A DNA stretch of 64,000 bases from Acidimicrobiaceae bacterium (GTDB taxonomy: Bacteria; Actinomycetota; Acidimicrobiia; Acidimicrobiales; RAAP-2), in contig PNAH01000028.1 in the NCBI GenBank assembly GCA_003170315.1, positions 109,119 to 173,118 of the forward strand, in the 5' to 3' direction. The position numbers were made by a program, and so were the translations under genes. Every line of letters begins with the position of its first letter. The first letter of the stretch is position 1. Below the pieces are notes generated by a model. It was not told the DNA's origin. It searched no databases and worked only from the letters and a program-made list of their open reading frames with translations. This document shows, one piece after another, positions 52,943 through 54,945 of the stretch.

Positions 52943-53019
52943 CGCGGGGTGGAGCAGTCTGGTAGCTCGTCGGGCTCATAACCCGAAGGTCGCAAGTTCA
53001 AATCTTGCCCCCGCCACCA
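52943..53019 (+). tRNA. tRNA-fMet (CAT), CCA encoded
   Basis: CGCGGGG...TCGGG-CTCATAA-CCCGA anticodon arm with three consecutive G:C pairs; non-Watson-Crick 1:72; GCAAGTTCAAATCTTGC T-arm; 77 nt ending CCA. Confidence 0.93.
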
Positions 53020-53022
53020 AGA
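52970..53022. repeat. 53-bp direct repeat, copy 1 (attL-like; within tRNA-fMet)
   Basis: tcgggctcataacccgaaggtcgcaagttcaaatcttgcccccgccaccaaga, identical to 54893..54945. Confidence 0.95.
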
Positions 53023-53025
53023 TCA

Positions 53026-53051
53026 AAGGTCTCTCGCAAGAGAGGCCTTTG
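53026..53051 (+). terminator. hairpin aaaggtctctc-gcaa-gagaggccttt downstream of tRNA-fMet
   Basis: 11-bp stem with one G:U, GCAA loop, just after the tRNA. Confidence 0.7.
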
Positions 53052-53280
53052 TCATTTCCCGTCGTTTTTGAATCGCGATCTCAATATCCCGATCATCGCC
53101 AGCAGACACGTTGTTTAGTTGCCGATCAAATTCAAGTTTCCCAATTTTAGCCCGGTACCTGTCAATTGGAGAATCCATTTGCCATGGTGGTTGGGGTGCG
53201 ACTCTTGGACATTATGGGGGATTGAGCCCGTTGATTGACATAAACGGGTGTAACCATCTTCGAGAGGCAGAGTGTTGAAT

Positions 53281-53856
53281 ATGACTAGGGACGCTTTCCA
53301 ACGCGAGGCTGAGGACGTCTTTCGTGGAGTTTGGTTTCGGAACTTCGAGTCAATTTCCAAGTACGTCCGACGACGTATCGCCGCAAGCGAAGCCGCTGAC
53401 GATGTCGTCGCTGAGATTTTCAGTGTCGCCTGGCGTCGTTTGGAAGTACTGCCCACGGTGCCCAACGAACTTCCTTGGCTGTACGGAGTGGCTCACAACG
53501 TCGTGCTGACACACTTTCGTGCGCAGCGTCGCGCGTTCGCATTGGTCGATCGACTCGAAGCCAACTCTCGGCCGAGTCATAGTTCAATTCCGCAAATCAG
53601 TGCGAAGTTGTTATCGGCACTTCAGGGTTTGAGCGACATCGATCGCGAATTGTTCCGACTCACAATATGGGAGGAATTAAGTCAACATGACGCCGGAGTT
53701 GTTGTCGGTCTCAGCACCAAGGCAGTGGAACGTCGACTTGACCGTGCGCGTCAGAAGATTCGTGAACTTTGCATAGAGGACAATCGCGTTGCTTTGTTCA
53801 CATCTTCAAGAATGGCGTTCCCATACGAAGCAATACCTATAGAGAGGAATCACTAA
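53281..53856 (+). CDS. ECF-type RNA polymerase sigma-70 family factor
   Basis: FESISKYVRRRIAASEAADDVVAEIFSVAWRRLEVLP...NELPWLYGVAHNVVLTHFRAQRR...LLSALQGLSDIDRELFRLTIWEELSQHDAGVVVGLSTKAVERRLDRARQKIRE; GTG 53272 alternative start. Confidence 0.9.
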   Translation: MTRDAFQREAEDVFRGVWFRNFESISKYVRRRIAASEAADDVVAEIFSVAWRRLEVLPTVPNELPWLYGVAHNVVLTHFRAQRRAFALVDRLEANSRPSHSSIPQISAKLLSALQGLSDIDRELFRLTIWEELSQHDAGVVVGLSTKAVERRLDRARQKIRELCIEDNRVALFTSSRMAFPYEAIPIERNH

Positions 53857-54875
53857 TGAACATGATTGACCAACTAATTGCGGGACCGGATCCGCTCGGT
53901 GAGGGGGCGACTTTCGAGTCACAGAGTTCTGAAGCGGAGCAGATGTTTCAGAAAGTTATTGCATTGCCACGAGGTCGAGTCGCTGGCGTGCGGCGTATTC
54001 GCCCTCGAGTTCTCGTGGCTTCGGCGGCGGCCTCAATTATTGGTGCTGCCAGTATTCTCATCCCACTGATGGGTGCAAATGCTCCGTCGGCTGCCGCATC
54101 CGAACTTCAGAGGCTTTCATCAATCGTCGCGGCAGCTCCTGATGCCACGCTGGCCCCCGGTCAGTACGAGTACACCGATTCGGTCGGCCTCGGCCTCGTC
54201 GAGGCGGTGGAGCGACCCTCATACAACTACAACGTGAAGATGCATCGCCAGTTTTGGATCGGCGCCGATGGCTCGGGTCGCATTGCTATGACTTATTCGG
54301 ACCCAACTTTTCCGACCCCGAAAGATCGTGCCGCGTGGGTATCCGCTGGTAGCCCGGAACTGTCGGGTTCGCTACCTGATATGCAATCAATCACGAATCA
54401 GAGTTGGGGAGCGAGTAGCGGCAGTGCGCCCATTGACGAGTCCCAGTTGCCTACCGACCCGAGTCAGCTGTTCGCATACGTGCAGGCGAAGGCTAATAAT
54501 CCCAGCGCGGGCCAGAACTTTGGAGAGTTACAAGAGATTGCTTCACTGTTTGAAGAGCGCTACACGCCACCTGGGCTCGCATCGGCACTCCTGACTGTGG
54601 CATCTGAAATACCGGGTATCACGCTGGATAACTCCGCGACCTTGCCCGATGCTGCGGCCGGAATGGGTTTCGCGTTGACTTCAAACAATATGGCTGGATG
54701 GACTTTCAAAATGGAACTCATATTGAATCCGACGACCGGGTCAGTCGTCGGCGAGAAGGACTGGGCCACATCGAATTCGGGTTCAACGGACTCATTGAGG
54801 TGGACACACTTCGTAACTCAAGGAGTCGTTAATTCGATAAGTCAGACGAGCGCGACGACGAAAACGAACATTTGA
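53856..54875 (+). CDS. single-TM CU044_5270-like protein, putative partner/anti-sigma-like of the ECF factor
   Basis: N-terminal cytoplasmic segment, TM VLVASAAASIIGAASILIPLMG, extracytoplasmic domain AAPDATLAPGQYEYTDSVG...QFWIGADGSGRI; TAATG overlap with sigma gene. Confidence 0.72.
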   Translation: MNMIDQLIAGPDPLGEGATFESQSSEAEQMFQKVIALPRGRVAGVRRIRPRVLVASAAASIIGAASILIPLMGANAPSAAASELQRLSSIVAAAPDATLAPGQYEYTDSVGLGLVEAVERPSYNYNVKMHRQFWIGADGSGRIAMTYSDPTFPTPKDRAAWVSAGSPELSGSLPDMQSITNQSWGASSGSAPIDESQLPTDPSQLFAYVQAKANNPSAGQNFGELQEIASLFEERYTPPGLASALLTVASEIPGITLDNSATLPDAAAGMGFALTSNNMAGWTFKMELILNPTTGSVVGEKDWATSNSGSTDSLRWTHFVTQGVVNSISQTSATTKTNI

Positions 54876-54892
54876 GTTCAAGCTTGCCAACT

Positions 54893-54945
54893 TCGGGCTC
54901 ATAACCCGAAGGTCGCAAGTTCAAATCTTGCCCCCGCCACCAAGA
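54893..54945. repeat. 53-bp direct repeat, copy 2 (attR-like; 3' fragment of tRNA-fMet)
   Basis: Exact copy of 52970..53022 without the 5' half of the tRNA. Confidence 0.95.

Follow-up and report, generated by a model that had tools for sequence, protein, structure and literature searches.

A 1.9-kb segment beside the initiator tRNA gene of an uncultured member of the Acidimicrobiales is, with a probability that we put at about 0.8, an islet resembling a cis-mobilisable element (CIME), left by site-specific recombination at tRNA-fMet and now missing its recombinase. It spans positions 53023-54892 of the window, that is, the whole 64,000-nucleotide stretch that was analysed, which belongs to a draft genome of 2.35 Mb in 36 contigs (hereafter the source genome, G000). 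In the reading that we favour, a tyrosine-integrase element would have recombined within the anticodon arm of tRNA-fMet, supplying a new tRNA 3′ half with its 3′ hairpin (now 52970-53053) and displacing to 54893-54988 the tRNA 3′ end that had stood there, together with the hairpin following it. Either a larger element would then have shed its recombinase gene, or a related element would have provided the enzyme in trans, and what remains would be the gene for an ECF sigma factor with that of a probable anti-sigma partner in the membrane.

ARAGORN identified a single initiator-type tRNA-Met(cat) at the locus, and the longest exact repeat was 53 bp, joining the 3′ part of this tRNA to a second, co-oriented copy 1.9 kb away that lacks the tRNA 5′ half (Table 1). 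These data confirm the exact recurrence described in the first-pass annotation and the attL/attR-like geometry that it had read from it, with an intact tRNA at the proximal border and a tRNA 3′-end repeat at the distal one. The annotation had also proposed a search for other att copies; all 36 contigs (2.35 Mb) contained the two known copies of the 53-bp sequence and no further one, and a chance origin of the repeat is excluded. Among named sequences, those that best matched the exact 53 bp were mostly Acidimicrobiales or Acidimicrobiaceae metagenome-assembled genomes (MAGs) from palsa, fen and permafrost, three of them being identical with congeners (G009, G003 and G074).

Table 1. Features at the tRNA-fMet locus, in window coordinates.
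Coordinates	Strand	Feature	Basis or remark
49797..52688	+	UPF0182 gene; forms the conserved chromosomal flank to the left of the hotspot	PF03699; precedes tRNA-fMet in many congeners
52943..53019	+	Intact tRNA-fMet (CAT); 3′ half is the left repeat copy, attL-like	ARAGORN
52970..53022	+	Copy 1 of the 53-bp direct repeat, from the anticodon arm to CCA plus AGA	Repeat search
53021..53053	+	Hairpin immediately after the tRNA; differs from the hairpin after copy 2	Fold, alignment
53281..53856	+	ECF sigma factor gene; ATG at 53281, GTG at 53272 also possible	Pfam Sigma70_r2, r4_2
53856..54875	+	CU044_5270-family protein, predicted anti-sigma partner	NF038083, AF2, Foldseek
54893..54945	+	Copy 2 of the 53-bp direct repeat, lacking the tRNA 5′ half; attR-like, putative former tRNA 3′ end	Repeat search
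54951..54988	+	Terminator-like hairpin after copy 2	Fold
55075..56568	+	Gene for a DMFA2_C (dimethylformamidase beta-like) protein, adjoining copy 2 on the right	PF20254; adjoins msr block in G010 (C94)
56601..63695	-	Enoyl-CoA hydratase (ECH), CoA-transferase (CoAT) and liv-type ABC block; second part of the variable interval	Absent here in G094 and G093; at other loci in congeners

The DNA between the repeats is compositionally foreign. Compared to a mean GC content of 0.629 (sd 0.032), the segment 53020-54892 had 0.535, below all other 1.9-kb intervals sampled in 103 kb, which bears out the earlier impression of a less GC-rich interval. GC3 values were 0.526 and 0.579 for the sigma and CU044 genes, compared to 0.79-0.85 in the left flank (UPF0182, 0.85) and 0.82 for coxL; the genes from DMFA to liv (0.67-0.76) were nearer the chromosome than the sigma pair. 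Searches with Pfam and NF038083 agreed with the previous finding that the repeats enclose an ECF sigma gene and a CU044_5270-family gene only. No integrase was found in or near the 1.9-kb segment, as had been reported, and no integrase remnant inside it; the segment keeps att-like sites without integration or transfer genes.

We compared the locus against 98 congeneric genomes (99 genomes including the source genome, all MAGs of uncultured Acidimicrobiales), and the view of the first-pass annotation that the segment is a sigma-factor cargo unit from a tRNA-fMet-targeting element held up in this comparison. The closest genome among those fetched was G094 (UPF0182, 91.5%; DivIVA, 96.6%), which shares the left flank and carries, after its tRNA, approximately 3.6 kb of other DNA (genes identified by inspection as those of a PadR-type regulator and of ABC transporters) followed by a 55-bp partial tRNA copy; it has 92.7% DNA identity to the source genome from window coordinate ~64259, just past the window end. 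A second relative, G093, likewise shares the left flank and rejoins the right flank of the source genome approximately 5 kb after its own tRNA, with no partial copy there. From these junctions it follows that the DNA from the tRNA to ~64.26 kb, comprising the sigma segment and the DMFA-ECH-CoAT-liv genes, is absent at the locus in both genomes. The repeat-bounded unit of the earlier annotation therefore stands, but not its extent as a measure of the variable DNA, since what is missing in close relatives continues past 54945 to ~64259. The annotation had also considered that all close relatives might carry vertically inherited sigma and CU044 genes; no CU044 gene was detected in the nearest relatives G094, G093 and G090, and the first two lack the segment at this locus.

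The absence of the whole 53.0-64.26 kb interval from G094 and G093 raises the possibility, which we doubt, that the relevant unit runs from tRNA-fMet to ~64.26 kb (about 11 kb), as one element or two accreted ones, with the copy at 54893 lying inside it. The occurrence of the ECH-CoAT-liv block at other loci, without tRNA-fMet, in G062, G073 and G036 fits such a larger unit, but there is no fMet copy at the 64.26-kb junction, and the base composition from DMFA to liv noted above, nearer the chromosome than that of the sigma pair, speaks against it. Moreover, DMFA may be old resident DNA, since it adjoins an msr block in G010 and msr genes lie in the right flank of the source genome at ~75.6 kb; its role as the ancestral right flank is only suggestive. 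The comparison of relatives for empty sites proposed in the first-pass annotation showed the segment to be absent from this locus in G094 and G093, but no allele with a single 53-bp copy and both flanks of the source genome was found among the congeners. In G079, msrAB lies 1.2 kb after the tRNA, on a contig that begins inside the tRNA. As DMFA stands beside tRNA-fMet in no congener with contiguous sequence, the pre-insertion state is one that we infer.

Across the genus, the left flank DivIVA-UPF0182-tRNA-fMet is kept in many congeners, and the DNA 3′ of the tRNA differs in nearly all of those examined. By sequence comparison, the tRNA-fMet 3′ end behaves as a genus-wide integration hotspot, active-looking over approximately 100 species of an uncultured Acidimicrobiales genus. 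Partial 3′ copies of tRNA-fMet were aligned from G000, G008, G015, G028, G034, G035 (several), G074, G087, G089, G090, G094 and G120; they start at tRNA nucleotides 22-33, end at nucleotides 75-81 and have unrelated 5′ context. One copy in G073 retains nucleotides 1-44 only. The overlap of the two kinds of copies falls in the anticodon arm, which suggests this arm as the likely crossover region. Contigs often break off inside the tRNA or some tens of bases beyond its 3′ end (e.g., G003, G025 and G031), as expected for a repeated or polymorphic junction, and in such MAGs the end of the contig often coincides with the hotspot. Variation was likewise seen on the 5′ side of the tRNA, after the UPF0182 gene (52688), where some species have inserts of 0.7 to 8 kb (e.g., L040, L052 and L057).

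To compare the folding of DNA after the fMet copies with controls we used whole distributions, because a cut-off of MFE ≤ -15 was reached by 66% of controls and was useless as a hairpin threshold. The 60 nt following the copies had a median of -28.7 kcal/mol, compared to -17.2 kcal/mol for 60-mers drawn at random from these loci (p = 6e-25, n = 63). The hairpin sequence differs from copy to copy, and hairpins were weak after a few of them (G089 and G079). The stronger folding after the 63 copies suggests that most incoming units supply a tRNA 3′ half together with a hairpin, while displaced copies keep theirs.

These observations bear on the tandem duplication of tRNA-fMet that the first-pass annotation had named as a rival, after which the second copy would have lost its 5′ half. 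The co-orientation of the two copies and their spacing of 1.9 kb would suit a duplication. The DNA after the copies, however, is unrelated (local alignment score of 13 compared to a shuffled mean of 14), each copy has a separate hairpin, and the DNA between them is compositionally foreign; the partial copies in about 12 genomes also begin in one short part of the tRNA, a pattern that deletions at random would not leave. Since the downstream DNA is unrelated and differently terminated, we rejected tandem duplication as almost certainly wrong.

Recombination at this tRNA calls for a matching enzyme, and tyrosine integrases were searched for in the source genome, as the first-pass annotation had recommended, and in its congeners. 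The tyrosine-type genes of the source genome were two XerC/D-like genes, one sub-threshold match and one phage-type integrase; the last lies on another contig and adjoins tRNA-Ala(GGC), so that the genome's own integrase was rejected as the driver, none being of the tRNA-fMet type. PF00589 genes were present in every one of the first 61 genomes searched, most of those listed being Xer-like in size, and the phage-type integrases beside a tRNA in the first genome set were at tRNA-Val(GAC) or tRNA-Ala(GGC). These two tRNAs were seen as further integrase hotspots (tRNA-Val at loci L129, L131, L139, L145, L146, L152 and L156; tRNA-Ala at L125, L137, L154, L158 and L159). At tRNA-fMet, two kinds of integrase were found. 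Type A, defined by at least 60% identity, has 7 members, all 87-502 bp 3′ of tRNA-fMet (G120, G026, G106, G109 and G103, with truncated genes in G067 and G105), and the close members of type B (G015 and G073) lie 86 and 158 bp from it; in most cases the integrase is 86-111 bp 3′ of the tRNA. Together, these results indicate that a tRNA-fMet-targeting tyrosine-integrase element of the kind previously postulated as the source exists in the genus, and the truncated type-A genes indicate that such elements decay in place. Neither type was found in the source genome at the thresholds used, and the islet has seemingly lost, or never carried, its recombinase; an enzyme related to type A or B may have acted here. 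In G073 (C2, L199), the geometry is reversed: a 5′-half tRNA-fMet (nucleotides 1-44) is followed 158 bp on by the type-B integrase (4900-6393), with a complete tRNA-fMet 7.8 kb downstream (12720-12798), as if the element carried the tRNA 5′ half.

Short fMet-bounded intervals with no detected integrase recur in the genus, at 1.8 and 2.8 kb in G090, 1.8, 3.4 and 5.3 kb in G035, 3.6 kb in G094, 2.8 and 8 kb in G028 and 1.9 kb in the source genome, and inspection of the small ORFs beside partial copies recognised no hidden recombinase. This recurrence, together with the continued identity of the two 53-bp copies in the source genome, could mean that the integrase-less cassettes form a standing pool mobilised in trans by type A or B integrases of other cells or elements, the islet being a working satellite rather than a dead remnant. 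We consider this unlikely, given that no circular form and no identical cassette in two genomes was seen, that decay in place also occurs (the truncated type-A genes of G067 and G105) and that the source genome is without a tRNA-fMet-type integrase. In a broader form of the idea, tRNA-fMet of this genus would serve as the landing platform for small cassettes without integrases that exist as a standing pool; each would combine a tRNA 3′ half, a hairpin and cargo, and a few integrases specific to tRNA-fMet would shuffle them in trans. The locus would then be a tRNA-based counterpart of an integron, with the sigma pair serving as its regulatory cargo; this is distinctly unlikely. We consider it improbable that the segment arrived by homologous exchange, through conserved flanks or through fMet copies, and that the last step needed no recombinase: the 53-bp identity and the conserved flanks could serve as crossover points, and the DNA between UPF0182 and the tRNA varies too, but exchange of this kind leaves unexplained both the constant anticodon-arm starts of the partial copies and the integrases fixed at the site. 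With a hotspot and matching integrase families identified, whether integrase-less cassettes move in trans becomes a testable question.

Arrays with two complete tRNA-fMet genes and one 3′-only copy each were observed in G090 (C20, L195; 8729-13537) and G028 (C7, L033), with small cargo that differs between the copies. Five IMG/VR viral contigs (L220-L224) contain the tRNA-fMet 3′ half without the 5′ half, with a hairpin after most, a pattern that is consistent with phage att sites at tRNA-fMet; none of the five showed a link to the sigma pair.

The cargo appears to work as a unit. The ECF sigma protein matched PF04542 and PF08281 above the cut-off, containing Sigma70 regions 2 and 4 only, and its nearest solved structures are ECF sigma factors. 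Its stop codon overlaps the CU044 start (TAATG, 53854-53858). The match of the second protein to NF038083 was borderline (100.1 bits compared to a curated cut-off of 100), and its layout comprises approximately 60 cytoplasmic residues, one TM segment and an extracytoplasmic domain of approximately 265 residues. Scanning with an ECF-protein profile placed an ECF sigma gene directly upstream in 10 of 10 CU044 loci, drawn from this genus and from other families of the Acidimicrobiales and counting a second pair of the source genome (contig C3), and four further congener loci were also paired, with a stop/start overlap. This constant pairing in every relative checked is what suggests a functional unit. 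The second CU044_5270-like gene of the source genome, with its ECF sigma gene upstream, lies at C3:776-1621 (L272). The best relatives of the CU044 protein in the genus had 33-40% identity.

We used AF2 and Foldseek to examine the CU044 protein, for which the Pfam scan gave no match and thus no recognised anti-sigma domain, and for which a sequence match to solved structures was not found. The whole protein was modelled poorly, as was its N-terminus, but the extracytoplasmic domain (15 sequences) reached a pLDDT of 84 and a pTM of 0.82. The best PDB matches of this domain were MucB and RseB (E of 1e-4 to 6e-4; probability of 0.97-1.00) with TM-scores of 0.24-0.27, so the models fail to superpose over their full length, and the predicted resemblance to RseB/MucB is weak. 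The CU044 protein is the probable membrane anti-sigma partner of the ECF sigma factor, and the pair may act as an envelope-signal switch: the cytoplasmic N-terminus would hold the sigma factor, and an RseB-like outer domain would sense an envelope signal, in a one-protein version of RseA/RseB logic. This gives the uncharacterised CU044_5270 family a mechanistic hypothesis, namely that its members are membrane proteins linked to ECF sigma factors and bearing a domain similar to RseB/MucB. The sigma-E/RseA/RseB and AlgU/MucA/MucB systems (PMC8103513) likewise have an ECF sigma factor adjoining a single-pass membrane protein, and their RseB and MucB are the proteins best matched by the CU044 outer domain; they differ in that here a single protein would combine the membrane anchor with the RseB-like domain, with a TM-score of only ~0.25 to RseB/MucB and no sequence match to a solved structure.

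CIMEs are remnants of ICEs or IMEs that keep their att sites after the recombination and transfer genes have gone (PMC5704250). The islet shares with them att-like repeats in a tRNA 3′ end, the lack of integration and transfer genes and the presence of adjoining accreted units; it differs in being very small and in that no ICE or IME partner was seen in the source genome. It is CIME-like by gene content and geometry. In the ssrA genomic islands of Dehalococcoides, 15 of 31 are without an integration module, and the likeness extends to a hotspot found throughout the genus at the 3′ end of an RNA gene, with direct repeats, low GC, islands in tandem and some members without recombinases (PMC3146451). 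Those islands use a tmRNA, a 20-bp repeat and a serine recombinase, whereas here we found tRNA-fMet, a 53-bp repeat and tyrosine integrases in the congeners. Tycheposons and tRNA-linked flexible islands, such as the tRNA-Met island of Methylophilaceae, also carry cargo beside tRNA-Met with a tyrosine recombinase, but they are described as measuring 4-200 kb and include the recombinase (PMC10872708); the 1.9-kb islet has no tyrosine recombinase within it and falls outside the tycheposons. Neither does it have the integrase of its own that defines an integrative island, although it shows the tRNA 3′-end repeat and the absence from G094 and G093. By analogy, the islet looks like a CIME or an integrase-less ssrA island of Dehalococcoides; it is of a kind already known, and what is new about this instance is its site, its clade, the integrase families and the cargo.
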